Assembly (NCBI GenBank): GCA_017552435.1
Contig: JAFZPZ010000066.1
Coordinates: 1 to 44,330 of the forward strand
Reading direction: 5' to 3'
Length of the DNA stretch: 44,330 bases
From: Bacteroidaceae bacterium
Lineage (GTDB): Bacteria; Bacteroidota; Bacteroidia; Bacteroidales; Bacteroidaceae
Position 1 is the first letter of the stretch. The number at the start of each line of letters is the position of its first letter. Shown one piece after another: positions 981 through 44,044 of the stretch. The notes beneath the pieces were generated by a model. It worked only from the letters and a program-made list of their open reading frames with translations, had not been told where the DNA came from and did no database searches. The translations under genes and the position numbers were made by a program.

Positions 981-1019
981 AATAAATCCTCCGTGTCAAC
1001 CAGATATGGAGGATTTATT
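981..1019. promoter_or_regulatory. 12-bp perfect inverted repeat abutting the GH106 promoter
   Basis: AATAAATCCTCC (981-992) and GGAGGATTTATT (1008-1019) are perfect inverse copies with a 15-base spacer. The right arm ends one base before the -7 box of the GH106 gene. It may be an operator overlapping the promoter, or a terminator stem for the upstream gene, but no T-run follows. Confidence 0.55.
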
Positions 1020-1020
1020 G

Positions 1021-1028
1021 TAACTTTG
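1021..1028 (+). promoter_or_regulatory. Bacteroidetes -7 box for the GH106 gene
   Basis: TAACTTTG matches the TAnnTTTG consensus. It lies 28 bases before the ATG at 1056 and inside the longest possible reading frame from 993. This makes 1056 the likely start codon. I see no clear -33 TTTG at the usual spacing. Confidence 0.7.
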
Positions 1029-1055
1029 CAAAAGAAACATGTCATTTTCAATGCG

Positions 1056-4000
1056 ATGAAAAGAATACACGTCCTCCGAATACTTGTTATTGCACCCATC
1101 ATGGGGCTTAGTGCTATGACGCCGACAGAGTACCCTGCTGTGCCTGATACGGCGAAGCTGCGTTCTGCTTTCTCGAAAAAGGATCAGGCGGCCTTCCTGC
1201 ATCCCGACCGCATCTATTACCCCGAGACGTGGTTCCATTTCATCAACACCAATATCCGGCGCGAGGGCATTACCCGCGACCTGGAGGCTATCGCGGCCTC
1301 TGGCATTCAGGGCGTGCAGTTCTTCCACGGGCAGATGGGTGACACCAAGGATTGGCCGGGAACTGAGGAACACGTGAAATGCCTGAGCCCCGAATGGGAA
1401 GACTTGGTGCGGCATACGGCAGAGGAGGCGCACCGGCTGGGACTGCGCTTCAGCCTGCAGACGTGTCCAGGATGGGCCATGAGCGGCGGACCGTGGATTG
1501 AGCCCGAGCAGGCCATGCGCCACCTGAGCTACTCGCGGACTGATGTGTCGGGCGCGGGGGAGGTGGATGTAGAACTACCCGTTCCGCAGACAGAAGACTG
1601 GCGCGACTGGCGGGACATTGCCGTGTTGGCCTTCCCGGCTCCGCAGGGCGACAGTGGCCGGTACTGTGAGATAGAAGAGGTGGAAGCCGAGGAACATCAA
1701 GAGGACTGGCAGCGACTCCTCAGCGGCGAGCGGGGCTTCAGCCTGGAACCCACCACTCCACAGAAACCCCACCGCGTCCGCGTCAAGACAAAACTCCCTC
1801 TAAAGGGGGTTGGGGGGTCCAGGTCAATTCGTTCCATTGAGTTCAATCCCATCGACCACTTTAATCATGAGTTCTGCGTACAACCTGATATCCATCTGCG
1901 TGTCCTGACATCCGGACAGACCGTCACCCTCGATACGGACTTCCCGCACGCCAATTGGCAGGACGATGAGAAGACGATGACTTTCGCTCTGCCAGACCTC
2001 AGGGAACAGGCGGAGTACATCCTGGAAATCACTAACCTACATCCCATGCGCCTGACGAGCCTGCGCTTCTCCACAGCCACGCGCGGCCACAACTGGGAGA
2101 TGGAGGCTGGCTGGACATCGCGCTGGCTGCTACCTCTTCCAAAGAATATGAACGAGGACGGCAGCGGCTTCGTCAAAAGAGCCGAAATCATCAACCTGAC
2201 AGACAGGATGACAGCCGATGGACGGCTCTGCTGGACGGCTCCCGAGGGGCGGTGGATAGTGCTGCGCATCGGGCATGTGAACACAGGACGACAGAACGGC
2301 CCTGCTCCCAAAGAGGCTACAGGCTGGGAGGTGAACAAGCTCGACTCGGCATACGTCGCCTACCAGTTCCGCAGCTACATCGGAAGGCTCACAGACGGGC
2401 CGCTGAAGGGACTGGTGAACAATATGCTGATGGACAGCTGGGAATGCTCGTCGCAGACGTGGACAAGATACATGCAGCAAGAGTTCCAGCAACGACGACA
2501 CTACGACCTGCTCGACTGGCTGCCCGCCATCTTCGGATGGGTGATAGACGGCCGCCGGCAGACAAGCAGGTTCCTGTCCGACTGGCGCCGCACCATCAAC
2601 GAACTCTTCACCGACAACTTCTACGGTCAGATGACGCGTCTGGCTCATGAGAAGGGAATGACGGTCAGCTATGAGACGGCGGCGGGTGACATCTTCCCTG
2701 GCGACCCGATGGAGTTCTACAAATATGCCGACGTGCCGATGACGGAATACTGGCAGCCCATCAGGAATTGGCTGGCCAACCACAACTACAAACCCATCCG
2801 CTGCACGGCTTCGGCTGCCCGCATGTACGGCAAGCCGCGTGTCTCGGCAGAGAGCTTTACGTCGTTTGAACTCACATGGGACGAACACCTGAGCCAACTG
2901 CGCGAAGTGGCGAACCAGAATATGGCGGAGGGCGTGACGCATACCGTCTTCCATACCTACACGCACAACCCCGATGCAGACCGCTACTTCCCGGGCACGT
3001 CGTTCGGCGGCGGCATCGGAACACCGTTCCTCCGCAAGCAGACGTGGTGGCCCTTCATGCACCATTTCAACACCTATCTGGCCCGCTGCGCCTTCATGCT
3101 GGAGAGGGGACTGCCCGTGAGCAGCGTCCTCTGGTACATCGGCGACGAGATAGAACAGAAACCCGACCAGTATGCGCCCTTCCCCGAAGGGTATGCCTTC
3201 GACTACTGCAACACCGACGCCTTTCTGCATCGCATCAGCGTCAAGGACGGACGTTGGACTACTCCCGAGGGCATCTGCTATGACGTGCTCTGGATTCCCG
3301 ACACAAAGCGTCTGTTGCCCGAAACCTTTGAGAGGCTGGAACAATTGGCGGCGCAAGGCGGACGCATCGTCAGGAATGTTTCCATTTCGAAATTGGGAAG
3401 CGCCCTCGAGGCTTTAGGGCTGCAACCCGATGTAAAACCCACAACGCTGCGCTGGCTCCATCGTCATACAGACGGAGCCGACTGGTACATGATTTGTCCG
3501 CAACCGGAGCAGGGATTCAGCGGCGAGGTCGCTTTCCGACAGAAAGGATGTGCCGAGCTCTGGAACCCGATGAACGGTAGCATTCAGCCTGTCGAAACAC
3601 AGGCCGACGGCGACTACACCCGGGTGCGTTTGAACTTGCAGCGAGGAGAAATGATGTTTCTGGTGTGGGGCGGACCAACTTCCTCTAAATCTCCCCAGAC
3701 TTCAATCCACTCCCCCTCGGGGGAGACGGAGGGGGGCCGCTTTGGCCCGTGGACTCTCACTTTCCCAGAAGGGTGGGGTATCGAAGGGCCGCTTCAACTG
3801 ACAGAACTGAAGGCCTGGAAAGACTTGCCGCTCAGCGACGAAGGACGCGCTTTCTCAGGTACTGCTACCTACGAGACTACCATTCACTTCGACCGCATAA
3901 AGCGAGGGCGTAAGTGCCTGCTCCGACTCGGCGAAGTAGAAGAGATTGCTGTCGTTAGGGTGAATGGAGAAGTAGCCGATACACTCTGGGCTGCACCTTA

Positions 4001-4199
4001 TCAGACCGACATTGCTCCTTATCTGCATCGTGGCAATAACAACATCAGCATACAGGTTACCAGCACCTGGTTCAACCGTCTGGTCTATGATGCATCTTTG
4101 CCAGAGGAGCAGCGAAAAACTTGGGTCATCAACGGTCCCTCTGCCAAAGAACCCCTGCGCCCGTCTGGTCTGCTGGGCCCCGTCGAGATAGTCATGTAA
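1056..4199 (+). CDS. GH106 family alpha-L-rhamnosidase, secreted
   Basis: The 1047-residue product begins with a hydrophobic signal peptide (MKRIHVLRILVIAPIMGLS). Its N-terminal half has GH106-type features: YPETWFHFINTNI, GVQFFHG, CPGWAMSGGPWI, then LLMDSWE and the VSAESFTSFELTWDEHL stretch. The last 150 residues look like a galactose-binding-type beta-sandwich. GH106 enzymes cleave terminal alpha-L-rhamnose from plant pectin-type glycans, in Bacteroides in the periplasm. The longer frame from 993 would begin upstream of the promoter, so 1056 is chosen. A complete rhamnose catabolic set follows 160 bases downstream, which supports the substrate. Two G/C palindromic elements (1792-1820 and 3708-3740) are translated in frame, the second in the linker before the C-terminal sandwich. 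Confidence 0.85.
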   Translation: MKRIHVLRILVIAPIMGLSAMTPTEYPAVPDTAKLRSAFSKKDQAAFLHPDRIYYPETWFHFINTNIRREGITRDLEAIAASGIQGVQFFHGQMGDTKDWPGTEEHVKCLSPEWEDLVRHTAEEAHRLGLRFSLQTCPGWAMSGGPWIEPEQAMRHLSYSRTDVSGAGEVDVELPVPQTEDWRDWRDIAVLAFPAPQGDSGRYCEIEEVEAEEHQEDWQRLLSGERGFSLEPTTPQKPHRVRVKTKLPLKGVGGSRSIRSIEFNPIDHFNHEFCVQPDIHLRVLTSGQTVTLDTDFPHANWQDDEKTMTFALPDLREQAEYILEITNLHPMRLTSLRFSTATRGHNWEMEAGWTSRWLLPLPKNMNEDGSGFVKRAEIINLTDRMTADGRLCWTAPEGRWIVLRIGHVNTGRQNGPAPKEATGWEVNKLDSAYVAYQFRSYIGRLTDGPLKGLVNNMLMDSWECSSQTWTRYMQQEFQQRRHYDLLDWLPAIFGWVIDGRRQTSRFLSDWRRTINELFTDNFYGQMTRLAHEKGMTVSYETAAGDIFPGDPMEFYKYADVPMTEYWQPIRNWLANHNYKPIRCTASAARMYGKPRVSAESFTSFELTWDEHLSQLREVANQNMAEGVTHTVFHTYTHNPDADRYFPGTSFGGGIGTPFLRKQTWWPFMHHFNTYLARCAFMLERGLPVSSVLWYIGDEIEQKPDQYAPFPEGYAFDYCNTDAFLHRISVKDGRWTTPEGICYDVLWIPDTKRLLPETFERLEQLAAQGGRIVRNVSISKLGSALEALGLQPDVKPTTLRWLHRHTDGADWYMICPQPEQGFSGEVAFRQKGCAELWNPMNGSIQPVETQADGDYTRVRLNLQRGEMMFLVWGGPTSSKSPQTSIHSPSGETEGGRFGPWTLTFPEGWGIEGPLQLTELKAWKDLPLSDEGRAFSGTATYETTIHFDRIKRGRKCLLRLGEVEEIAVVRVNGEVADTLWAAPYQTDIAPYLHRGNNNISIQVTSTWFNRLVYDASLPEEQRKTWVINGPSAKEPLRPSGLLGPVEIVM
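1792..1820 (+). repeat. In-frame G/C palindromic element, copy in GH106 gene
   Basis: The core is CTCCCTCTAAAGGGGG followed by TTGGGGGGTCC. It is read in frame as Leu-Pro-Leu-Lys-Gly-Val-Gly-Gly-Ser. The copy in sufS at 13545 is read in the same frame and gives nearly the same peptide. Confidence 0.75.
3708..3740 (+). repeat. In-frame G/C palindromic element, second copy in GH106 gene
   Basis: CTCCCCCTCGGGGGAG (3710-3725) is a perfect palindrome followed by ACGGAGGGGGGCC. It is translated as Ser-Pro-Ser-Gly-Glu-Thr-Glu-Gly-Gly in the linker before the C-terminal domain. It is a related but distinct variant of the 1792 element. Confidence 0.65.
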
Positions 4200-7109: not shown

Positions 7110-8366
7110 ATGAAAAGCGAGAACATCACAAAAGCTTACGAACTGGCGAAAGAGCGTTACGCCGAGTTCGGCATCGACACAGAGAAAGTAATCAAGCAGT
7201 TACAGGACTTCCACCTCAGCATGCACTGCTGGCAGGCTGACGACGTTGCGGGTTTCGAGGTACAGGCTGGGGCACTCTCCGGCGGCATCCAGAGTACAGG
7301 CAACTATCCTGGTAAGGCTCGGAACATCGACGAGTTGCGCAGCGACATCCTCAAGGCTAAGAGCCTCATTCCAGGCACTCATCGCCTGAACCTCCATGAA
7401 ATCTATGGCGACTTCAAGGGAAAGGTTGTGGATCGCGACGAAGTGACCGTAGAGTATTTCCAGAGCTGGATTGATTGGGGTAAGGAAACAGGCACGAAAC
7501 TCGACTTCAACAGCACATCCTTCTCCCACCCGAAAAGCGGCAACCTATCCTTGTCCAATCCCGATAAGGGCATCCGCGACTTCTGGATTGAGCACACGAA
7601 GCGCTGCCGCGATATCGCCAACGCTATGGGCGAGGCACAGGGCGACCCCTGCATCATGAACCTATGGGTACACGATGGCTGCAAGGACCAGAGTGTCAAC
7701 CACTTCCTCTATCGGCATTATCTGAAGGACTCACTCGACCAGATCTTTGCCAAACCACAGCCCATGATGAAGGACTGCATCGAAGGCAAAGTCTTCGGCA
7801 TCGGACTGGAAAGTTTTACGGTCGGCAGCCACGACTTCTACACGGCGTATGCAGCCAAGAACAACATCATCCTCACCATCGACACGGGGCACTACCACCC
7901 GACGGAAAGCCCAGCCGACAAGGTAAGCGCCGTTTTGCAGTTCGTTCCAGAGCTGATGCTGCACGTGAGTCGTCCCATTCGTTGGGACAGCGACCACGTC
8001 ACCATCATGGACGACCCGACGGTGGAACTCTTCCAGGAAATTGTGCGAGCCAATGCTATGGACCGCGTACATTACGGCCTCGACTACTTCGACGGCAGCA
8101 TCAACCGCGTCGGTGCTTACGTGACCGGTTCGCGTGCCGCCCAGAAATGCATGCTTCGTGCCCTGCTGGAACCCACAGCACAGATTGGCAAGTATGAATT
8201 GGAGGGCAAAGGTTTCCAGAGCCTCGCCCTTCTTGAAGAAGCGAAGGCACTGCCCTGGAACGCTGTCTATGACGAGTTCTGCCAGCGTAACAATGTGCCT
8301 GTAGGCAATGACTTTATTGCTGAAGTTGAGAAGTACGAAGCAACGGTGACAAGGTATAGGGATTAG
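7110..8366 (+). CDS. rhaA: L-rhamnose isomerase
   Basis: The 418-residue length matches RhaA. Recognisable stretches are FHLSMHCWQADDVAGFE near the N-terminus, NSTSFSHPKSGNLSLSN, GIGLESFTVGSHDFYTAYA, LTIDTGHYHPTE and VHYGLDYFDGSINR. These carry the metal- and substrate-binding His, Asp and Glu residues of this TIM-barrel, metal-dependent isomerase. It converts L-rhamnose to L-rhamnulose in the cytoplasm. It lies 26 bases after rhaB in the same operon. The last codons run into a GGATTA-type simple repeat that continues past the stop. Confidence 0.95.
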   Translation: MKSENITKAYELAKERYAEFGIDTEKVIKQLQDFHLSMHCWQADDVAGFEVQAGALSGGIQSTGNYPGKARNIDELRSDILKAKSLIPGTHRLNLHEIYGDFKGKVVDRDEVTVEYFQSWIDWGKETGTKLDFNSTSFSHPKSGNLSLSNPDKGIRDFWIEHTKRCRDIANAMGEAQGDPCIMNLWVHDGCKDQSVNHFLYRHYLKDSLDQIFAKPQPMMKDCIEGKVFGIGLESFTVGSHDFYTAYAAKNNIILTIDTGHYHPTESPADKVSAVLQFVPELMLHVSRPIRWDSDHVTIMDDPTVELFQEIVRANAMDRVHYGLDYFDGSINRVGAYVTGSRAAQKCMLRALLEPTAQIGKYELEGKGFQSLALLEEAKALPWNAVYDEFCQRNNVPVGNDFIAEVEKYEATVTRYRD

Positions 8367-10353: not shown

Positions 10354-11112
10354 ATGCTAAAAATAGAGAACCTGCACGCCAGCATTGGCGGCAAAGAGAT
10401 ATTGAAGGGCATCAATCTGACGGTGCGCGACGGCGAGGTTCATGCCATCATGGGACTCAACGGCGCAGGCAAGAGCACCCTCTCCAATGTCATCGTGGGG
10501 CATCCTGCCTACGAGGTGACAGAGGGCAGCATCATCTGGGATGGAAAAGACCTGCTTTCGCTCAAACCCGAGGAGCGTGCCCACGAAGGCATCTTCCTGA
10601 GCTTCCAGCAGCCTGTGGAGATACCGGGCGTGTCGATGGTGAACTTTATGCGCGCCGCCCTCAATGCCCAACGTAAGTATCGGGGACTCGAGCCTTTGCC
10701 AGCCGGCGATTTCCTAAAACTGATGCGGGAGAAGCGCAGCATCGTGGAGCTTGACAGCAAGCTGGCGAGCCGTAGCGTGAACGAAGGATTCTCGGGCGGC
10801 GAAAAGAAACGCAACGAGATCTTCCAGATGGCGATGCTCGAACCGAAGCTCACCATTCTCGATGAGACAGACAGCGGCCTCGACGTCGATGCCCTGCGTA
10901 TAGTGGCAGAGGGCTTCAACAAACTGCGAAAACCGGAGTCGAGCGCCATCGTCATCACCCACTACCAGCGTTTGCTCGACTACCTGAAGCCGGATGTCGT
11001 GCATGTGCTTATCGACGGACGCATCGTTAAGACCGGAGGCCCGGAACTGGCAACGGAGATAGAGAACCGAGGGTTCGACTGGATTACAAAGGGATTAGGG
11101 ATTAAGGATTAG
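10354..11112 (+). CDS. sufC: Fe-S cluster assembly ATPase SufC
   Basis: This 252-residue ABC-type ATPase has Walker A at 34-42 (GLNGAGKST), a Q-loop FLSFQQPVEIPGVS, signature FSGGEKKR at 146-153 and Walker B KLTILDETDSGLD at 165-176, all standard for SufC. It powers the SufBCD scaffold in the cytoplasm. It is followed by sufD after 91 bases and then sufS. The usual partner sufB is not upstream (the rhamnose operon is) and is not in the window. The last residues (GLGIKD) are encoded by a GGATTA-type repeat that spans the stop codon. Confidence 0.95.
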   Translation: MLKIENLHASIGGKEILKGINLTVRDGEVHAIMGLNGAGKSTLSNVIVGHPAYEVTEGSIIWDGKDLLSLKPEERAHEGIFLSFQQPVEIPGVSMVNFMRAALNAQRKYRGLEPLPAGDFLKLMREKRSIVELDSKLASRSVNEGFSGGEKKRNEIFQMAMLEPKLTILDETDSGLDVDALRIVAEGFNKLRKPESSAIVITHYQRLLDYLKPDVVHVLIDGRIVKTGGPELATEIENRGFDWITKGLGIKD

Positions 11113-11121
11113 GGATTAAGG
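11091..11121 (+). repeat. GGATTA-type simple repeat across the sufC stop codon
   Basis: GGGATTAGGGATTAAGGATT and further units run from inside the sufC C-terminus past its stop (11110-11112). They are like the string at the end of rhaA. Confidence 0.65.
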
Positions 11122-11203: not shown

Positions 11204-12412
11204 ATGAGGCAATACATAGACTTCTATAGCGAGGTGCGGAAAACAATAAAAAGCCGCAGCTGCGATGAGATGAACGCCCAGCGCGAGGAGGCTTTGCAGA
11301 CTTTCTCCGCACAGGGTTTCCCCTCTCCGAAGGTCGAGCGCTACCGCTATGCGAAGGTCGAGGCCGACTTCTCGCCCAACTATGGTATTGCACTCACCCC
11401 TATTGCCGGAAAGCTCCCGCCCTACTGCTTCCGAATTGCGGATGCTGAGCCTCGCGTGCGTACATTATATAATAGTGTGGCCGACACGACCGATAGCATT
11501 GTGGCGCTCAACACCCTGCTCTGCGTCGATACGTTGGTCGTGCATGTGCCGCGAGGCATCAAGGTGGAGCACCCCATACAAATCAGCAACATCCTCAAAG
11601 GCGAACAGGACACGATGGTCAACCGCCGCATCCTCATCGTGATGGATGACCTGGCGGAGGCCGATGTCATCATCACCGACCTGGCAGCCAGCCAGAGCCG
11701 TTTCCTGACCAATCAGGTTATCGAGGTGGTGATGGGCGACGGTTCGCACCTCAGCCTCTACGAGGTGGAGGAGACGCATCTGCTCTGTACCCGCTATGGC
11801 AGCGTCTTCGTGCGCCAAGGGAAGGATAGTAGCCTTCACCACACCAGCCTGACGCTCTTCAACGGTCACACGCGCAACCGCCTCGATGTGCAGTTGCAGG
11901 GCGAGGGCAGCGAAGTGACGGCGAATGGCTGCGTGATTGCCGACAAGATGCAGCGCGTGGATAACAACACGCTCATCGACCATCAGGTACCCAACTGCCA
12001 GAGCAATGAACTCTACAAGTACGTCCTCGACGATAGCGCTGTGGGAGCCTTTGCCGGCAAGGTCTTGGTGCGCGAGGGAGCACAGAAGACGGTAAGCCAG
12101 GAGACAAACGCCAACCTCTGTGCTACTCGCTCGGCCCGGATGTACTCGCAGCCCATGCTGGAAATCTATGCCGACGACGTGAAGTGCAGTCACGGCAGCA
12201 CCGTCGGTCAGATGAACGAATCCGCTCTCTTCTACATGCGGCAGCGCGGCATCGACGAGAAGGAAGCCCGTCTGTTGCTCAAAGCCGCCTTTATCACAGA
12301 AGTCATCGAAAACATACCTCTCGAATCGCTCCGCGACCGCTTGCATGTGCTGGTCGATAAGCGTCTGAGGGGCGAACTCAGCAAATGCGAAGGATGCAAA
12401 CTGTGTAAGTAA
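11204..12412 (+). CDS. sufD: Fe-S cluster assembly protein SufD
   Basis: The protein is 402 residues. The C-terminal half has the SufB/SufD core signature: VSQETNANLCATRSARMYSQPMLEIYADDVKCSHGSTVGQ, then LFYMRQRGIDEKEARLLL. The N-terminal PSPKVERYRYAKVEADFSPNYG is typical of SufD rather than SufB. With SufB and SufC it forms the scaffold on which Fe-S clusters are built. The start is preceded by CTTCATTCTTCA repeats and no clear promoter, so it is probably cotranscribed with sufC. Confidence 0.92.
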   Translation: MRQYIDFYSEVRKTIKSRSCDEMNAQREEALQTFSAQGFPSPKVERYRYAKVEADFSPNYGIALTPIAGKLPPYCFRIADAEPRVRTLYNSVADTTDSIVALNTLLCVDTLVVHVPRGIKVEHPIQISNILKGEQDTMVNRRILIVMDDLAEADVIITDLAASQSRFLTNQVIEVVMGDGSHLSLYEVEETHLLCTRYGSVFVRQGKDSSLHHTSLTLFNGHTRNRLDVQLQGEGSEVTANGCVIADKMQRVDNNTLIDHQVPNCQSNELYKYVLDDSAVGAFAGKVLVREGAQKTVSQETNANLCATRSARMYSQPMLEIYADDVKCSHGSTVGQMNESALFYMRQRGIDEKEARLLLKAAFITEVIENIPLESLRDRLHVLVDKRLRGELSKCEGCKLCK

Positions 12413-12450
12413 GACCCACCCCCTGTTCCCTCCCTTGTAGGGAGGGGGGG
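12413..12450 (-). repeat. G/C palindromic element, inverted copy at the sufD-sufS junction
   Basis: The sequence just after the sufD stop (core CCCTCCCTTGTAGGGAGGGG) is an inverse relative of the copy at 12511-12549. The two face each other across about 60 bases and could fold into a long stem in the suf mRNA. Confidence 0.65.
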
Positions 12451-12465
12451 AGATAGTAATTGCAG

Positions 12466-13770
12466 ATGGTAAAGAAAACGAAAACAGATATTCAGTCAAC
12501 AATAGTAACTTCTCCCCGCCCTACAAGGGAGGGGTTGGGGGAGGGTCTGTTCCCTATCCTGGACAAGGTCCTCTACGGCAAGTACCCCCTTGTCTATCTC
12601 GATAATGCCGCGACGACGCAGAAGCCGCGACAAGTGGTGGAGGCCATGACGGAGGAATACTACAACGTCAATGCCAACGTGCATCGCGGCGTGCATTTCC
12701 TTTCGCAGCAGGCAACAGATTTGCACGAGGCATCGCGCGAAACGGTACGCCGTTTTCTGAATGCCCGCAGCACCAGTGAGATTGTCTTCACGCGCGGCAC
12801 TACCGAGAGCATCAACCTCGTGGCGTCCTGCTTCGGACAAGCCTTTATGAAGGAGGGCGACGAGGTCATCCTCAGCGAGATGGAGCACCACAGCAACATC
12901 GTCTCGTGGCAGCTTCTTCAAGCAAGACAGGGCATCCGCCTGCGTGTGGTGCCTATCACCGATGACGGACGCCTTTGCATAGATGAGTACGAAAAGCTCT
13001 TCAGCGAGCGCACGAAAATCGTCAGCATCACGCACGTCAGCAACGTCCTGGGTACGATCAATCCTGTCCGCGACATCATCCGCATAGCCCACGAGCACGG
13101 CGTTCCCGTTCTCATCGACGGAGCCCAAAGCACACCCCACATGCCCATCGATGTTCAGGAACTCGACTGCGACTTCTTCGCCTTCAGCGGCCACAAGATT
13201 TACGGCCCGACGGGAATCGGCGTACTCTATGGCAAAGAGCAGTGGCTCGACCGCATCCCGCCATACATGGGCGGCGGCGAGATGATAAAAACGGTCAGCT
13301 TCGAGCGCACTACCTTCAACGACCTGCCCTTCAAGTTCGAGGCTGGAACACCGGATTATGTGGCATCCACCGGTCTCGCCAAGGCACTCGACTATGTCTC
13401 TTCTGTAGGCTTCGATAGTATCGAAGCTCATGAACGCGACCTGACGGCCTATGCCCTCCAGCGTATGAATGAGATAGAGGGAATGAGGATCTTCGGTCCC
13501 AAGGACATCCAGGAGCACGATGCCGTCATCAGCTTCCTGGTGCACCTCCCCCTAAAGGGGGCCGGGGGGTCTTTTATCCACCACCTCGATATGGGCACTC
13601 TGCTCGACCGCCTCGGTATCGCCATTCGTACCGGCCACCATTGTGCCGAACCTTTGATGCACCGTTTGGGCATAGAGGGAACCTGTCGTGCCAGCTTTGC
13701 TCTCTACAACACTCGCGAGGACGTTGATGCCCTCGTCGCCGGAATCCAGCGTATAACTAAAATGTTTTAA
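12466..13770 (+). CDS. sufS: Cysteine desulfurase SufS
   Basis: This PLP-dependent class V aminotransferase-fold enzyme releases sulfur from cysteine for the Suf system. The PLP lysine is in FSGHKIYGPTG (Lys244 from this start) and the persulfide cysteine is in GTCRASFALYN (Cys407). NNATTQKP-like DNAATTQKP and RTGHHCAEP are typical. The ATG at 12466 is chosen; a TTG at 12460 is also in frame. Two oddities exist. Residues 1-28 are not SufS-like and include a translated palindromic element (SPRPTREGLGEGL). A second element inserts HLPLKGAGGSF between ISFLV and IHHLDMGTLLDRLG, a stretch that is normally continuous with only about two residues there. Both are in frame, so the gene looks functional. 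Confidence 0.93.
   Translation: MVKKTKTDIQSTIVTSPRPTREGLGEGLFPILDKVLYGKYPLVYLDNAATTQKPRQVVEAMTEEYYNVNANVHRGVHFLSQQATDLHEASRETVRRFLNARSTSEIVFTRGTTESINLVASCFGQAFMKEGDEVILSEMEHHSNIVSWQLLQARQGIRLRVVPITDDGRLCIDEYEKLFSERTKIVSITHVSNVLGTINPVRDIIRIAHEHGVPVLIDGAQSTPHMPIDVQELDCDFFAFSGHKIYGPTGIGVLYGKEQWLDRIPPYMGGGEMIKTVSFERTTFNDLPFKFEAGTPDYVASTGLAKALDYVSSVGFDSIEAHERDLTAYALQRMNEIEGMRIFGPKDIQEHDAVISFLVHLPLKGAGGSFIHHLDMGTLLDRLGIAIRTGHHCAEPLMHRLGIEGTCRASFALYNTREDVDALVAGIQRITKMF
12511..12549 (+). repeat. In-frame G/C palindromic element at the SufS N-terminus
   Basis: The core CCCTACAAGGGAGGGG followed by TTGGGGGAGGGTCTG is read in frame as Pro-Arg-Pro-Thr-Arg-Glu-Gly-Leu-Gly-Glu-Gly-Leu. It lies directly before the conserved SufS start region (FPILDKVLYGK) and opposite in orientation to the copy at 12413-12450. 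Confidence 0.7.
13545..13573 (+). repeat. In-frame G/C palindromic element in the SufS core
   Basis: CTCCCCCTAAAGGGGG is followed by CCGGGGGGTCTT. It is almost identical to the copies at 1792-1820 and 26811-26838 and in the same orientation. It adds about nine residues to a conserved region of SufS. Confidence 0.8.
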
Positions 13771-15282: not shown

Positions 15283-18200
15283 ATGAAGAAAAACCTAACT
15301 CTTTTATTTGTCCTTTTCTGCCTGTTTGGCGGCAGCATTTGGGCGCAAACCTTCACTCAGGGCAACCTGAAGTTTACAGTAACCGATGCAAATGCCAAGA
15401 CCGTGTCTGTGGCAAAGGCAAACAACGACATTTCGGGAGACATTGTGATTCCCTCCACTGTCACCAACTCAAACGTGACCTACACGGTGACGACTGTTGC
15501 CGAATACGGCTTCCAGAACACTGGCATCTCAGCCGTGACCATTCCCGCTTCAGTGGAAAAGATTGGCTATTATGCCTTCCAGGGCACCCAATCGTTGACA
15601 AAGCTCACCATTCAGGACAGTGCCACACCCATAGAGTTTGTCACGGGCTACAACCTTTCCTTCGGCACCTCACTCAAGGAGCTTTACATTGGCCGCGACA
15701 TCAACCGCACAGGTGACTATGCTAGCTATCGCCTGCTCGATGGAGCTGAGAAAGTCACCTTCGGCCCGAAAGTGACCGCCATCCCCAACAACTTTATGTC
15801 GGGTCAGGACAACATGCACACGCTCATCATTGGCGACGGCGTGAAGACCATCGGCGACGATGCCTTTGCAGGCGACCGCTACGGACAGCCTGAACTATCT
15901 GTCACGATGGGTGCCAACGTGGAGAGCATTGGCGCTCGTGCATTCCAAAACTGCTTTACCTTGAAGAGCATCACCCTGCCCTCGAAGCTGAAGACCATTG
16001 GCAGCAATGCATTTAACGGCACCTACATCACATCCATCACCATCCCCGCATCGGTCACCGACATCGAATACTATGCATTCCTTTCTTGCGGACAACTGAC
16101 CAGCATCAATTTCGAAGACAGCGACGAACCCGTCAACTTCGTCTCGGGATACGCTCGCTCCTTCGGTGGCTCAGCCAAGGAGGTTTACATTGGCCGTGAC
16201 ATCAACCGCACAGGCGACTATGCTGGTGAACGCATGTTCGACAATGTAACGAAGGTGACCTTCGGCCCGAAAGTGACCGCCATCCCCAACAACTTTATGT
16301 CGGGTCAGGACAACATGCACACGCTCATCATTGGCGACGGCGTGAAGACCATCGGCGACGATGCCTTCCAGGGCGACCGCTACGGAGAACCTGAACTATC
16401 TGTCACGATGGGTGCCAACGTGGAGAGCATCGGCGCCCGTGCCTTCCAAAGCTGCTTTGCCCTGAAGAGCATCACCCTGCCCGCAAAGCTGAAGACCATT
16501 GGCAACAATGCATTTAACGGCACCTACATCACATCCATCACCATCCCCGCTTCGGTCACAGACATTGAATACTACGCCTTCGTTGGTTGCGACCAACTGA
16601 CCAGCATCAAATTCGAAGACAGCGACCAGCCCGTCAACTTTGTCACGGGATACACTCTCTCCTTCGGAGGTGCCGCCAAGGAAGTCTATCTTGGCCGCGA
16701 TGTCAACCGCATAGGCGACTATGCTGGCGAACGCTTGTTCAACAATGTAACGAAGGTGACATTCGGTCCGAAGTTCACAGAGATTGGCCGAAATATGTTC
16801 AACGGCAACAGGGAACTCACCAGTATCGTCATCGGCTCGGGCGTAAAGACTATCGGCCAGAGTGCCTTCTACAACTGTGGTAACTTGGACAACATAGAAG
16901 AGCTGAAGGTGACGATGGGAGCCAACGTGGAAACGCTGGCCGACAATGCTTTCCAGTACTGCTCGAAGCTGAAGAGCATCACCATCCCCTCGAAGGTGAA
17001 GGCCATTGGCGCATATGCCTTCGATGGCAGCGGACTCACCACCCTCACCATTCCGGCTAACGTGACCGTCGTCAACTACTATGCTTTCCGGAATTGCGAC
17101 GCACTGGCCAGCATAAACATCGAAGAAAGCACAGAACCCCTCGAGTTCGTCACAGGCTACACTCGCTCCTTCGGCTACAACAACCCCAAGACTGTGTTCT
17201 ACGGACGAAATGTAATCCGCACAGGCGACTACACAAACGAGCGCATGTTCAACAAAGTTACAGACCTGACCATCGGCGACATGGTGACGGAGATTCCCAA
17301 CTTTATGTTCGACGGCAACAGCGAACTGCAGAACGCAACCATTGGCACGGGCGTGAAATACATCGGAGAGAGTGCCTTCCGTAACTGTGGCACTTCGGAC
17401 GACGTAACGGAACTGAAGGTCGAGTTGGGTGTCAACGTGGATTCGCTGGCAGCCTATGCTTTCCAGAATTGTAAGAAACTGCAGACCATCAGCCTGCCAT
17501 CAACGCTGAAGGTCATCGAATCATGTGCCTTCGATTACAGCGGACTGACCGCACTATCCATCCCCACATCGGTTAAACGCTTGGGCTATTATGCTTTCCG
17601 TGGCTGCGATTCGCTGACCAGCGTAAGAATAGAAGAAAGCACTGAGCCTATCGAGTTCGTCACTGGCTACACTCGCTCCTTCGGCTACACCAAGCCAAAG
17701 ACGGTGTTCTACGGGCGAAATGTAATCCGCACAGGCGACTACACAAACGAGCGCATGTTCAATAAAGTAACAGACCTGACCATCGGCGACATGGTGACGG
17801 AGATTCCCAACTTTATGTTCGATGGCAATGTCGAACTGCAGAACGCAACCATCGGCACAGGTGTTAAGTACATCGGCCAGAGTGCCTTCCGTAGCTGTGG
17901 CACTTCGGACGACGTAACGGAACTGAAGGTCGAGATGGGTGCCAACGTGGATTCGCTGGCAGCCTATGCCTTCTACGACTGTAAGAAACTGCAGGCCATC
18001 AGCCTGCCATCAACGCTGAAGGTCATCGAATCATGCGCCTTCGATTACAGCGGACTGACCGCACTATCCATCCCCACATCGGTTAAACGCTTGGGCTATT
18101 ATGCTTTCCGTGGCTGCGATTCGCTGACCAGCGTAAGAATAGAAGAAAGCGCTGAGCCTATCGAATTCGTCACAGGCTACAGTCGCTCCTTCGGCAGCGC

Positions 18201-20022
18201 CGAAAAGGAGGTGTTCTACGGACGAAATGTAGTCCGCACAGGTGACTACACAAACGAGCGCATCTTCAACAAGGTGACGAAGCTAACCATCAGCGACAAG
18301 GTGACGGAGATTGGTTCGAATATGTTCAACGGCAACAATGAGCTGGAGCTGATCTACGTAGCTTGGCTAACTCCTATCGACATCAATGCGAACGTTTTCA
18401 GTTCAGCAACCTACAATACGGCCAAGTTGCGTATTCCCGGCGGCACAGTTAATGCCTATAAGAGCCACCAGGTATGGAAACTGTTCCTGAACGTGGAGGA
18501 AAGTTCCTTCTTCGTAACTGGTACAGCTACTCAGGGCGGAACTCTGACATTTGCCGGAGAGAGCGTAACGAACGGCACGAAGAAAGTGCTCGTGGACCGC
18601 GAATCGGATGTGACATTCCAGGTTAAGGCCGAAGAGAACTACGACTTCACAAGCCTCACCGTGAACGGCACCGCCGTAAATGTGGCTAACGGTATCTACA
18701 CTTACCCCAACCTGCAATCCAACATCGACGTAGTGGCTACGTTCACCGAGAAGCCCAAGTTCGACATCAAGGCAACGGCTACAGGTGGTACTGTATCGCT
18801 GAACGGCGCAACACCTTCCGCTTCTCAGACCATCAATGTCTATCGCGACACCAACGTTACACTCACCATCGCAGCAGCTGAAGGCTATGAGAATCCGAAG
18901 GTAACAGTCAACGGTATCGACGTGACCGCTCAGCTCAAAGACAACCAGCTGACAATAGAGAACATCCAGGAAGCTCAGACCATCGTCGTGACTTATGCCA
19001 AGATTAAGTTCCAGATTGCTGCCGAGACGACTCAGAACGGTACTATCGAGTTGAGCAAGAACGTGGTTGAATGGGGCGACAGCTTCACTGCTACTTTCAA
19101 GCCGGCTACTGGCTACGAGTTCGCAACAGCTACCCTGAACGGCGAGAATGTAACTGCACAGGTTCAGGATGGCGTGCTTACCGTCACCAATGTCAAGGAG
19201 AACAAGACCGTAGGCGCAACATTCGTGAAGCAGACCTTTACCGTCAGCATCAGTGGTGGCGGTATCAACGTCAGCACCACGACTCCGCAGTATGGCGACA
19301 ACGTGACCGTGACCATCGACGATGATCCCGACCGCACACTTGTCAGCCTGATTGTCAACGGTCAGGACGTAACCTCTCAGGTTGTGAACGGCCAGTACAT
19401 TATTAATAATGTGACCGGCAATGTAACCATCGAAGCAACCTTCAAGTCAACGAAGGAGTTCATCACCCTGACCGGCACATACGCTATGTTCAGTTGCCCG
19501 CAGGACCTCAACTTCACAGGCAGCGACCTCCGCGCTTACATCGCTTCCGGCTTCAACAAGAACACCAACCAAGTTCTTTTAGTTCGTGTCTATGATGTAC
19601 CTGCTGGAACTGGCGTATTCCTGGTAGGCGAGCCCAGCACAACCTACAAGATTCCGTATGCCGAGTCCGTATCCTACTATGTCAACCTCTTCAAGGCCAA
19701 CCTGCAGAAGAGCAGCATCTACGCTACAACTGGTGATTTCACCAACTTCAACTTTGGCGAGCAGGACGGCGATCCCGGTTTCTATCCCATTATCGATTAC
19801 GTGACACTTCTGGCTCAGACTGCCTACCTGCAGCTGCCCAGCAGCTTCGTAGCAGCTGGTGTGAAGGTAAGCTTTGTCTTCGAGGATGACATCATCGACG
19901 GCATTGAGGACTTCCGCATCAGCGAAACCGACGAGACCATCTACGACCTCGCAGGCCGCCGCCTCGGCAAGACGCAGAAGGGTATCAACATCGTGAATGG
20001 CAAGAAGATTGCGATTAAGTGA
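15283..20022 (+). CDS. BspA-like leucine-rich repeat surface protein
   Basis: This 1579-residue protein has a clear signal peptide (LTLLFVLFCLFGGSIWAQ). Residues 30-1070 are BspA/Treponema-type LRR_5 repeats with the recurring pattern SITIPxxVxxIexyAFxxCxxL. They are organised into six larger units of about 167-170 residues, each with a GRDINRTGDY or GRNVIRTGDY motif (near 15691, 16189, 16687, 17203, 17713 and 18219). Residues 1075-1395 hold four or five beta-rich repeats of about 80 residues (FxVTGxATQGGT...VxATFxE), like bacterial divergent InlB-type repeats. The end (IYDLAGRRLGKTQKGINIVNGKKIAIK region) resembles the C-terminal sorting-like tails of Prevotella secreted proteins. Likely cell-surface or secreted adhesin; the ligand is unknown. 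Confidence 0.85.
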   Translation: MKKNLTLLFVLFCLFGGSIWAQTFTQGNLKFTVTDANAKTVSVAKANNDISGDIVIPSTVTNSNVTYTVTTVAEYGFQNTGISAVTIPASVEKIGYYAFQGTQSLTKLTIQDSATPIEFVTGYNLSFGTSLKELYIGRDINRTGDYASYRLLDGAEKVTFGPKVTAIPNNFMSGQDNMHTLIIGDGVKTIGDDAFAGDRYGQPELSVTMGANVESIGARAFQNCFTLKSITLPSKLKTIGSNAFNGTYITSITIPASVTDIEYYAFLSCGQLTSINFEDSDEPVNFVSGYARSFGGSAKEVYIGRDINRTGDYAGERMFDNVTKVTFGPKVTAIPNNFMSGQDNMHTLIIGDGVKTIGDDAFQGDRYGEPELSVTMGANVESIGARAFQSCFALKSITLPAKLKTIGNNAFNGTYITSITIPASVTDIEYYAFVGCDQLTSIKFEDSDQPVNFVTGYTLSFGGAAKEVYLGRDVNRIGDYAGERLFNNVTKVTFGPKFTEIGRNMFNGNRELTSIVIGSGVKTIGQSAFYNCGNLDNIEELKVTMGANVETLADNAFQYCSKLKSITIPSKVKAIGAYAFDGSGLTTLTIPANVTVVNYYAFRNCDALASINIEESTEPLEFVTGYTRSFGYNNPKTVFYGRNVIRTGDYTNERMFNKVTDLTIGDMVTEIPNFMFDGNSELQNATIGTGVKYIGESAFRNCGTSDDVTELKVELGVNVDSLAAYAFQNCKKLQTISLPSTLKVIESCAFDYSGLTALSIPTSVKRLGYYAFRGCDSLTSVRIEESTEPIEFVTGYTRSFGYTKPKTVFYGRNVIRTGDYTNERMFNKVTDLTIGDMVTEIPNFMFDGNVELQNATIGTGVKYIGQSAFRSCGTSDDVTELKVEMGANVDSLAAYAFYDCKKLQAISLPSTLKVIESCAFDYSGLTALSIPTSVKRLGYYAFRGCDSLTSVRIEESAEPIEFVTGYSRSFGSAEKEVFYGRNVVRTGDYTNERIFNKVTKLTISDKVTEIGSNMFNGNNELELIYVAWLTPIDINANVFSSATYNTAKLRIPGGTVNAYKSHQVWKLFLNVEESSFFVTGTATQGGTLTFAGESVTNGTKKVLVDRESDVTFQVKAEENYDFTSLTVNGTAVNVANGIYTYPNLQSNIDVVATFTEKPKFDIKATATGGTVSLNGATPSASQTINVYRDTNVTLTIAAAEGYENPKVTVNGIDVTAQLKDNQLTIENIQEAQTIVVTYAKIKFQIAAETTQNGTIELSKNVVEWGDSFTATFKPATGYEFATATLNGENVTAQVQDGVLTVTNVKENKTVGATFVKQTFTVSISGGGINVSTTTPQYGDNVTVTIDDDPDRTLVSLIVNGQDVTSQVVNGQYIINNVTGNVTIEATFKSTKEFITLTGTYAMFSCPQDLNFTGSDLRAYIASGFNKNTNQVLLVRVYDVPAGTGVFLVGEPSTTYKIPYAESVSYYVNLFKANLQKSSIYATTGDFTNFNFGEQDGDPGFYPIIDYVTLLAQTAYLQLPSSFVAAGVKVSFVFEDDIIDGIEDFRISETDETIYDLAGRRLGKTQKGINIVNGKKIAIK

Positions 20023-22565: not shown

Positions 22566-22573
22566 CAAAGGTA
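22566..22573 (-). promoter_or_regulatory. -7 box for pnp
   Basis: On the minus strand this reads TACCTTTG, 54 bases before the pnp start. The rest of the 22512-22914 gap holds ATGAACT-type heptamers (near 22636-22660) and a 21-base-period array, and no gene I can support. Confidence 0.65.
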
Positions 22574-22801
22574 CGAAAAATAGTTCATAGTTCTTCGCAT
22601 TTTCTTTAAAAAAAATGCTTAGGCGCAGGCGAAACATAGTTCATAGTTCATAATTATGCATTAAATGCCAATTTTGTGCCTTTGTTGAGATTATGGCATA
22701 CCTTGAAAGCCTGTCTTTTCCTGATTTTGGTGGTTCTTCTGCAATTTAGTTGAAAGTAAATACATCTTTTCTTCTCACATAGAATGGAATTTTATGTTTC
22801 C

Positions 22802-26791: not shown

Positions 26792-28522
26792 ATGAACAAA
26801 CATTTGTTTTCTCCCCCTAAAGGTGGATGGGGGGTCTTAATCCTCATTCTTTCATGTCTCTTATTCTCATGTGCTGACGATGAGGGACCTGCAAAGCTCA
26901 TCACTTGGGACATCGGCGACCCAGCTACCGCCGAGTACAACGAAGACTACTATGCAGGCGGATTGCTTGGCACAACAACTGATAACACTGCAACTGCCTT
27001 CAAGCAGCCCACAAAATCTGTAGAGAACGAGGGCATGGTGACCGCCTTCAACGAGGGAGAATACCTCTTCGAGAAAGACTACAACACCAATACCGAAGGT
27101 GCTTTCCGAGGACTTGGCCCCGTCTATGTGCGGCGAAGCTGTATCTATTGCCATCCCGGTTACGGTCATGGAGCACGCCAAACCGAGTACAAGGCCGACA
27201 ATCATCGCAACGGCTATCTGCTCGTCATATACGATAAGACAACCAATGCCTACATCCGTTCCGTAGCAGGAATGCCGCAGACGGGAGCTGTCAAACCATT
27301 CAAGGCACCCATCGACGAGAACCAAATCAAGATTGCATGGAACAGCTACACAGACGAATGGGACAATCAGTTTCCCGATGGAGAGGCCTATTCCCTTATC
27401 TATCCGGAAGTGACGATTCCCTATACAGCTTACTACGCACCCATAATGGTTCAACGAGGTGGAACTGACGTTGAACTCTCCGAAGAAGAGTATAACAACG
27501 AAATAGGCGTTCTGCTTGAATCCACCATAGGCATCTACGGCACAGGCCTCACGGATGCTATTCCCGACGAGGATATCACGGCGCAATGGAAAGCGGAGAG
27601 CCAGTACTTCAAGAGCATCGGACGAACAGATGCCCTGAATCCTTCTCTATGGAACAGCACAACCGATACTTGGAACAGTTTCTATAGCAATGCCTTACAG
27701 GGCGACGGCACGAAGTATGTCCGCCGCTACACCTACGCCCTTTCTCGTGGCCCTATCCTTGATGCTGCCGGAGCCAACGCCATCTGGAACATCACAAACG
27801 TCACACGCTCCGACCGCCGTTACCATTATCTCGACCTTGCAGGCAAATACTACGCCACGAAGTCTTCCCAAGACCCCGATGTGCAGGCAGGCTTCACGGA
27901 GTACATCAACCATATCGACCCTACGAATGCCCATCCTGAATGGCATACTGGCGACCTCCAGAAGGACATCTATACCTATTTGACAAGCAAGTCGCTTGAC
28001 CTCGAAATGACTGACACCCAATACAAAAGCTTTATGGTTTGGCATCGAGGTCTCGCTGTTCCCGCTGCACGCAACACCACAACCGACAACTTCAAGCGGG
28101 GCAAGGAACTGTTTGCTCAGATTGGTTGTGCCGCTTGCCACCGTCCTTCTTGGCAGACGGGTGACGACCACATCCAAGATCCCGCCAAGTTCTTTCTGTC
28201 CGACAGCGACATGCCTCGCTACCCCAGTCAGAAGATATGGCCCTATACGGACTTCGTACAGCATCGGCTTTGGATGAAGAATGACATCCGAACAGGCTGG
28301 TGCCGCACGACACCACTATGGGGAAGAGGCTTGGCAGCCAAATGTGGAAGTGGTACGGAACGCCTGCATGACTGCCGCGCACGCAACGTTGTCGAAGCCA
28401 TCATGTGGCACGGATGTAGATTTGAAGGTGGCACAAGCGATGCCTACCAAAGCATCGTCAAGTTCCGCAACTTGACGAAGGAGGAGCGCAACCAAATAAT
28501 CTTCTTCATCGAATCCATCTGA
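26792..28522 (+). CDS. Di-haem oxidoreductase (DHOR/DUF1111-type) lipoprotein
   Basis: This 576-residue protein has two CxxCH haem c motifs, CIYCH at 117-121 and CAACH at 446-450. C-terminal motifs are typical of the family (IWPYTDFVQH, RTTPLWGRG, LHDCRARNVVEAIMWHG, LTKEERNQIIFFIESI). The lipobox is LLFSC (Cys27). Members are putative peroxidases or thiol oxidoreductases, usually next to imelysin genes. The signal peptide is odd: its n-region FSPPKGGWGV is encoded by a copy of the dispersed G/C palindromic element (26811-26838). The gene follows imelysin after 5 bases. Confidence 0.87.
   Translation: MNKHLFSPPKGGWGVLILILSCLLFSCADDEGPAKLITWDIGDPATAEYNEDYYAGGLLGTTTDNTATAFKQPTKSVENEGMVTAFNEGEYLFEKDYNTNTEGAFRGLGPVYVRRSCIYCHPGYGHGARQTEYKADNHRNGYLLVIYDKTTNAYIRSVAGMPQTGAVKPFKAPIDENQIKIAWNSYTDEWDNQFPDGEAYSLIYPEVTIPYTAYYAPIMVQRGGTDVELSEEEYNNEIGVLLESTIGIYGTGLTDAIPDEDITAQWKAESQYFKSIGRTDALNPSLWNSTTDTWNSFYSNALQGDGTKYVRRYTYALSRGPILDAAGANAIWNITNVTRSDRRYHYLDLAGKYYATKSSQDPDVQAGFTEYINHIDPTNAHPEWHTGDLQKDIYTYLTSKSLDLEMTDTQYKSFMVWHRGLAVPAARNTTTDNFKRGKELFAQIGCAACHRPSWQTGDDHIQDPAKFFLSDSDMPRYPSQKIWPYTDFVQHRLWMKNDIRTGWCRTTPLWGRGLAAKCGSGTERLHDCRARNVVEAIMWHGCRFEGGTSDAYQSIVKFRNLTKEERNQIIFFIESI
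26811..26838 (+). repeat. G/C palindromic element inside a signal-peptide coding region
   Basis: CTCCCCCTAAAGGTGG is followed by ATGGGGGGTCTT. It is close to the copies in sufS and the GH106 gene but is read in another frame (Ser-Pro-Pro-Lys-Gly-Gly-Trp-Gly-Val). Confidence 0.75.
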
Positions 28523-40214: not shown

Positions 40215-40379
40215 CGTTCTTTTTCCTCCTCTGTTTAGGGATGGGGTACATGCACAGAAATCTTTGGCTCCTTCTGGAGCTTGCATGACGATGCAGACTC
40301 CGGAGCGCTAAGAATTGTAATTATCCGCGTGATAGTCGTCCATTGTGGTTATAGAAATATTGTTTGTTGTGTTTCTTTG

Positions 40380-40450
40380 TTGGGCTACCCGGACTCGAAC
40401 CAGGAAAGGCAGGACCAGAATCTGCAGTGTTACCATTACACCATAGCCCA
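40380..40450 (-). tRNA. tRNA-Gln (CUG), copy 2
   Basis: The minus strand folds as a 71-base cloverleaf: acceptor TGGGCTA/TAGCCCA, D-arm GTGT/ACAC, anticodon loop TTCTGGT with anticodon CTG, and T-loop TTCGAGT. CCA is not encoded. It is identical to the copy at 40469-40539 and 18 bases from it. Confidence 0.93.
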
Positions 40451-40468
40451 ATCGGCTCAAAATTTCTG

Positions 40469-40539
40469 TTGGGCTACCCGGACTCGAACCAGGAAAGGCA
40501 GGACCAGAATCTGCAGTGTTACCATTACACCATAGCCCA
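40469..40539 (-). tRNA. tRNA-Gln (CUG), copy 1
   Basis: Sequence and fold are identical to the copy at 40380-40450. It is the promoter-proximal member of a tandem pair on the minus strand. Confidence 0.93.
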
Positions 40540-40581: not shown

Positions 40582-40628
40582 CAGCTTTTTTATAAACTCG
40601 CAAATCTTTATGCTAAAAAAAACAAAAT

Positions 40629-40688
40629 AATTCTTAATTCTTAACTCTTAACTCTTAATTATGAACTCTTAATTATGAACTATAAACT
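40629..40688. repeat. Imperfect AACTCTTAATT/ATGAACT simple repeats
   Basis: Short direct repeats such as AATTCTTAA, AACTCTTAA and ATTATGAACT fill the space between the divergent tRNA-Gln and rsfS promoters. The same words occur near 5535, 22640 and 43079. Confidence 0.5.
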
Positions 40689-40696
40689 ATTTTTCG

Positions 40697-40704
40697 TACC
40701 TTTG
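40697..40704 (+). promoter_or_regulatory. -7 box for rsfS-ftsH-cdsA
   Basis: TACCTTTG lies 36 bases before the rsfS ATG at 40740. Confidence 0.7.
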
Positions 40705-41114: not shown

Positions 41115-43076
<1,962 letters not shown>

Positions 43077-43078
43077 CT

Positions 43079-43106
43079 ATGAACTATGAATTATGAACTA
43101 TGAACT
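43079..43106 (+). repeat. ATGAACT heptamer repeat covering the cdsA start codon
   Basis: ATG triplets occur every 7 bases at 43079, 43086, 43093 and 43100 within ATGAACT/ATGAATT units. The last one is the cdsA start; the other three open very short frames that stop within a few codons. Confidence 0.7.
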
Positions 43107-43948: not shown

Positions 43949-44044
43949 TGTGGATTAGAGATTAGGGATTAGAGAAAAAGAACAAATTCAGCATAAAGCG
44001 AAAAATAATTTTTAATTTTTAATTTTTAATTCTTAATTTATTTG

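Follow-up and report, generated by a model that had tools for sequence, protein, structure and literature searches.

A palindromic repeat read in frame within sufS of a Bacteroidaceae bacterium, and its probable kinship with REP/REPIN-like mobile elements

The window analyzed here is a stretch of 44,330 nucleotides from a Bacteroidaceae bacterium in which sufS lies downstream of sufC and sufD, the latter scoring above its family cut-off. The sufS ORF (12460..13770, plus strand) opens with TTG at 12460 and has an in-frame ATG at 12466. In a profile search its product scored 568.8 bits against TIGR01979 (cut-off 475.1), and with the RTGHHC cysteine motif also present we assign it to the SufS-family cysteine desulfurases. 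The six residues of this motif (R360, T361, G362, H363, H364 and C365) are invariant across 40 aligned SufS rows. Between the segments ISFLV and IHHLDMG, the protein reads HLPLKGAGGSF (13543..13575, plus strand), a position at which the majority of relatives carry just two residues, typically GN; the peptide spanning this lengthened turn is ISFLVHLPLKGAGGSFIHHLD. The corresponding DNA, CACCTCCCCCTAAAGGGGGCCGGGGGGTCTTTT, is in frame within ORF 12460–13770. Nested in it is a REP-like half-element, CTCCCCCTAAAGGGGGCCGGGGGGTC (13546..13571, plus strand), which consists of a hairpin followed by a G-rich tail ending in GGTC. The original prediction had placed a palindromic element in frame in SufS at 13543–13575, with a gain of about nine residues, and sequence and ORF bear this out. 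In G027 and G005, the two top-scoring genomes after the window's own, SufS (89–90%) has V-GN-IHHLD at this point; 11 residues thus stand for GN, a net gain of nine. Frame and downstream catalytic motif are kept as predicted, with the RTGHHC codons at 13627–13644. What was described as an insertion into the conserved core is actually in a variable turn between conserved segments.

A second repeat occupies the sufD–sufS junction. This inverted pair (I3), a doublet of another sequence variant, has its left half at 12413..12452 (minus strand), with a GACCC end that adjoins the sufD stop codon TAA (12410–12412). The right half (12512..12547, plus strand) is in frame in the SufS N-terminus, part of which the doublet encodes; nucleotides 12508–12549 read TSPRPTREGLGEGL. 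The SufS proteins of G027 and G005 have N-termini related to the doublet-encoded one. Another repeat class enters a gene end nearby: the C-terminus of sufC (KGLGIKD and stop; 11090–11121) is encoded by an AGGGATT-like heptamer repeat that recurs near 8358.

At two mismatches or fewer, CTCCCCCTAAAGGGGG matched three times in the window (at 1794, 13546 and 26811) and never in 100 shuffles. All three copies are inside ORFs, by Pfam names those of a GH106 glycosidase, SufS and the start of a DHOR-family protein, which confirms the expected near-unchanged copies in two other genes. The first (1794..1819, plus strand) reads LPLKGVGGS in frame inside the GH106 domain of ORF 993–4199. The last (26811..26836, plus strand) reads SPPKGGWGV in frame near the start of ORF 26792–28522, within what looks, by eye, like a lipoprotein signal peptide. 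A variant copy with stem CCCCCTCGGGGG (3710..3737, plus strand) is also in frame (SPSGETEGG) in the GH106 gene, beyond the Pfam match. The sole Rfam hits at the gathering threshold were tRNAs across the whole window. Side by side, two tRNA-Gln (ctg) genes (40379–40450 and 40468–40539, minus strand) share an identical 75-base stretch over each, and an ORF of 1579 amino acids (15283–20022) has repeats ∼501–510 bases apart that by eye are leucine-rich-repeat-like.

Across the 3.5-Mb genome, the 26-base unit CTCCCYCTAAAGGGGGNNGGGGGGTC gave 157 matches at three mismatches or fewer (80 forward, 77 reverse), against none for the reversed pattern used as a control, so the repeat family is real. The SufS copy is base-for-base identical to other copies in this genome. 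We examined 117 copies in fetched stretches, chosen by the pattern at three mismatches or fewer; conservation inside the unit is therefore by construction. The stem is CCCCC/GGGGG, the tail is NNGGGGGGTC, and the unit ends in GGTC (GACC on the other strand). Flanks of the 117 copies are weakly conserved and T-rich on the hairpin side. Of 22 neighboring pairs less than 300 bases apart, 16 are head-out inverted (−+), spaced 45–167 bases start to start and 14 of them 71–96. Inverted doublets with a spacer, as in REPINs, thus account for 16 of the 22 close pairs, and many copies are partnerless by this pattern. Heptamer-like tracts, such as CATTGAC repeats, often lie on the inner side of copies, as judged by eye. 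Within the window, A/T-rich tracts of this sort occur at 22566–22664, 40628–40704, 43073–43106 and 44006–44038. Similar tracts adjoin palindromes elsewhere in the genome, and some apparently encode the opening residues of ORFs resembling, by eye, RimO and RsmG.

A coding-score script placed 62 of the 117 copies with a coding region on the GGTC side only, 5 with one on the other side only, 24 without coding context and 1 at an edge. It scored 19 as in-frame within coding sequence, an undercount, since the SufS copy itself came out as 'conv/div'. Five more, apparent frame shifts at first, proved to sit where two ORFs meet. Of 38 gene 3′ ends that point toward the element, 20 have their stop codon within −2 to +1 bases of its outer end; the sufD stop likewise adjoins GACCC at 12413.

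We then compared the SufS turn among relatives, most of whose genomes are metagenome bins. In the genome set (59 genomes with a SufS match, 30 loci aligned), the turn is lengthened in four loci including the window's: G013 has a doublet of another type, and G009 and G004 have unrelated loops with no evident palindrome. A second set, overlapping the first, comprised the best 80 of 265 SufS loci, from bins mostly named Bacteroidaceae, Prevotellaceae or Bacteroidales and in many cases from ruminants. The turn is lengthened in 19 of these 80, often by different palindromes, and short in 61; a loop common to most relatives, which would have told against an insertion, is not what we see. Inserts include HLPLKGAGGA (L296), SLPLREGRGGS (L256), SLPPGGGQEGAI (L254), FLPLGGGQERGF (L270) and SSPHRGDEGGF (L329, 67% identity), and L253, L257 and L260 share a doublet. 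Among single-element inserts compared by eye, palindrome orientation is constant, and the window, L296, L256, L254 and L270 share a frame that L329 does not. Solved SufS relatives have the short turn (three alignments shown).

In a quick tree that excluded the turn and comprised 80 rows, the window and 79 loci (the short-turn L263, missed by a motif search, was omitted), the lengthened or short state requires at least 10 changes. Support was uneven, with 20 of 77 inner branches starred. The window falls in a branch of nine rows, eight of which have an insert at the same codon position, its type varying between them; L270, L278, L317 and L329 sit in other branches alongside short-turn rows. Grouping the twelve REP-like rows as a single clade was rejected (p-AU 3e-55; at least six changes), with REP-like inserts classed by eye after the tree had been seen and eight lengthened rows left out (L264, L266, L288, L291, L295, L316, L326 and L327). 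Single-element inserts mostly do not outfold 500 mononucleotide shuffles: the fraction folding as well was 0.076 for the window, 0.052 for L329, and 0.098–0.258 for L254, L255, L270, L278 and L296. Folding stands out for the doublets L253, L257 and L260 and for L317 and L256; that of L295 does too (0.034), though it was not classed as a palindrome.

One pair of loci comes close to an empty-site comparison. Outside the turn, the sufS DNA of L270 and L271 is 96.6% identical, and the insert is present in L270 alone. At the turn, GTGGGCAAT in L271 corresponds to 39 hairpin-bearing bases in L270. This is compatible with a replacement of 9 bases by 39, or with a 30-base insertion plus a few nearby substitutions. 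Over ∼4.2 kb the two loci show four gap runs, of 30 bases in sufS, 62 just downstream of it, and 6, the fourth falling where the locus ends. The 62-base gap reflects a fuller doublet in L271 (∼2725–2797), the left half and spacer of which are missing from near-identical L270. Two of the four gap runs involve such repeats, which points to their recent movement.

The repeat also crosses other conserved genes in frame, as Rickettsia palindromic elements do. Genes so crossed and scoring above the NCBIfam cut-off encode HtpG, a RelA/SpoT family protein, Mfd (three copies), RmlD and ThrC; PurM, QueE and a PmbA/TldD-like protein are matches below cut-off, and by Pfam GH106, GH32, GH2, GH127, esterase, SPOR, HATPase and PKD proteins are crossed as well. 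Four reading frames of this DNA are used, giving LPLKGxGGS, xPPKGGxGV, TPQPPLGGE and DPLTPFRG. The two frames with a consensus stop were not seen among the in-frame ORFs listed.

For HtpG, the element is absent from the 12 aligned relatives (12 of the 29 loci besides the window's). Ten of the 12 carry close variants of ETKREKLEAERSDKL where the window's genome has EKTPQPPLGGEDKL, so native codons appear to have been replaced. No PDB match to HtpG was found at E ≤ 1e-110, an overly strict limit. The QueE peptide aligns to 4njg with just a 2-residue gap, and this copy is more a replacement than an addition. RmlD has 24 residues versus 3 in 1vl0. Among 16 aligned PurM relatives (of 29), 12 have a short loop, as does the structure 3mdo, and four have repeat-like loops (G005, G017, G035 and G003). 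Three of these kinds differ from the window's, and that of G017 is the same doublet kind as in the window's own genome. The PurM loops of G005, G035 and G003 (L122, L128 and L133) hold three more repeat-like sequences; loop sequences include NGQWSMVNGQ and ELRMKNEE/NSSFFILN. Taken with the element-free relatives, the other palindromes at the same turn and the genomic copy number, these housekeeping-gene copies support reading the SufS feature as an inserted, in-frame palindromic element, as first proposed. That reading needs an amendment: native codons were apparently replaced too, not just added to.

The window pattern was found in 16 of 61 genomes, all of the window's own genus, and in none of 24 genomes from other families. 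Which version is common differs from genome to genome. Among 13 genomes searched, pattern A occurred 155 times in the window's own genome (G000), 123 times in G063 and 6 times in G061, and pattern B 92 times in G061, 36 in G063, 29 in G064, 22 in G068 and 4 in G000; G066 and G070–G072 had neither. In G000 and in G064, the copy in sufS fits a pattern that is common in the genome concerned. Likewise, the SufS insert of L256 includes, exactly, a form that recurs several times in its genome. For the L329 palindrome, a search of its own genome at three mismatches or fewer gave a single match. Two IMG/VR viral contigs (L333 and L334) have an exact copy of the element.

As a candidate mover we considered the Y1/RAYT family (PF01797). 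No such gene was found in the window's genome, which is 88% complete, and RAYT-driven mobility there was set aside. In the genus, 8 of 37 genomes have a PF01797 match above cut-off, and among the five with at least 28 copies of the repeat, one has a Y1/RAYT gene.

The Rickettsia palindromic elements RPE-1, RPE-4 and RPE-6 reportedly lie in frame inside conserved genes. The likeness to them that had been pointed out thus holds for in-frame palindromes in housekeeping genes; in form the present element is nearer to REPs and REPINs than to RPE-1. The host differs, and the comparison is by description, not sequence. Neither a GTAG nor a CGTC tag is present in our element, which behaves like the Rickettsia elements and intragenic REPs.

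In Di Nocera et al. 2013 (PMC3733652), RPE-1 is described as longer, and REPs of the GTAG and CGTC super-families are high-copy short hairpins, often inverted dimers, found for the most part downstream of genes. Certain REPs supply a stop codon and others are in frame within ORFs, repair genes included, and in recB of two Xanthomonas species different REPs occupy about the same site (PMC3733652). CGTC REPs, reported there from Bacteroidetes among other phyla and with no known transposase, have a CGTC (TGTC, CCTC) tag, stems of 8–9 bp with A–T in the first positions, and a CCA tail (PMC3733652). Against this, our unit ends in GGTC, with no GTAG conserved in the flanks of 117 copies, its ends being part of the search pattern. 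It shares the GTC ending with CGTC REPs, yet by that description it differs in its C/G-only stem, which lacks first-position A–T pairs, and in its tail, NNGGGGGGTC. By the same account of intragenic REPs, what sets the SufS case apart is one turn occupied by many palindrome types across related species.

REPINs, as described in PMC3116915, are likewise inverted doublets with a variable spacer, here 71–96 bases start to start in 14 of 16 and 71 for the GI type. They are tied to a RAYT gene (PMC3116915), whereas the window's genome yielded none and many copies are single. Enterobacterial RU repeats, as portrayed in PMC2759123, are also small mobile repeats that keep reading frames in genes; at 103–168 bp and in enterobacteria, they are likened to ours by description, not sequence. 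A report of this repeat family was not found in the open-access literature searched, most subscription papers being outside the search, and the available sections of PMC5771137 hold nothing on such elements. Given the in-frame intragenic REPs, varied REPs at recB and CGTC REPs in Bacteroidetes of PMC3733652, the kind is already known. New here are a GGTC-tailed, G-rich form outside both tag classes and the breadth of palindrome turnover at one enzyme turn.

We consider it quite probable that a REP/REPIN-like mobile palindrome, itself non-autonomous, has spread to many copies in this Bacteroidales genome, and that 13546–13571 is one of its half-units. The basis is the copy number, the hairpin with its GGTC tail, the inverted doublets, the frequent place at gene ends (often at the stop codon), lineage-specific versions, copies read in frame within numerous conserved genes, and a SufS turn that is occupied in some close relatives and empty in others. 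Telling against it are the lack of a RAYT gene match in this genome and in four of the five copy-rich ones, the mostly unremarkable folding of single-element inserts, the lengthened turns that are not palindromic, the lone match of the L329 palindrome in its own genome, and the predominance of metagenome bins. Most likely, the SufS insert is a selfish repeat of this type tolerated as a putative surface turn; that the turn is exposed, we infer from sequence. A transposition-like process, driven by some enzyme, would bring in the copies, and those surviving within genes would mainly be frame-keeping ones located where a surface turn or linker tolerates them. In SufS, the peptide would be translated and retained as a longer turn, with no benefit to the enzyme needed. 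A turn once tolerant could then have its palindrome replaced by later ones, which would explain the different palindromes at one codon position in sister SufS genes.

The constant orientation of single-element inserts, several in one frame, might instead suggest that a PLKG/GG turn tunes SufS, for example in partner binding, and was selected for its peptide. L329 departs from that frame, other proteins use this DNA in four different frames, many relatives lack the insert, and only open frames could survive anyway; we find such selection improbable. It is more improbable still that the turn is simply hypervariable and its G/C-rich peptides came to resemble repeats convergently, without any mobile DNA. 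Several lengthened turns are indeed non-palindromic, and the loops of G009 and G004 are unrelated, but the window copy is identical to others in its genome and the L256 insert contains a form repeated in its own. Least of all do we credit an assembly or binning artefact. The source looks like a bin, as most relatives are, and repeats misassemble; nevertheless separate bins share related inserts (L296 resembles the window; L253, L257 and L260 have one doublet) with the frame kept.

A further alternative concerns history: one ancestral SufS insertion inherited by a clade and later overwritten by gene conversion from copies in each genome. The window's branch, with its eight inserts of several types at one position, fits such a history, as do the SufS copies of G000 and G064 that match the common type of their own genome. 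Yet L270, L278, L317 and L329 lie among short-turn rows elsewhere, a single clade is rejected, and the sisters L270 and L271 differ by a gain or precise loss in a short time. A single ancestral insertion is thus possible but doubtful. Under the preferred reading of tolerated selfish repeats, the data suggest that the SufS and PurM turns may be permissive sites whose contents turn over by new insertions or gene conversion. We offer only tentatively, as rather unlikely, the stronger proposal that these turns are standing docking sites, which would persist over long evolution while their DNA is repeatedly overwritten by each genome's spreading palindrome, in a RAYT-independent process that exchanges native codons for the element instead of just adding it.

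These data indicate that, in common bacteria of gut type, mobile palindromes reshape conserved proteins. Where near-identical genomes differ at the SufS site, they allow direct tests of how such repeats move with no known transposase and of enzyme tolerance. For annotators, LPLKGxGGS, TPQPPLGGE or SPRPTREGLGEGL in Bacteroidales proteins can derive from repeats.
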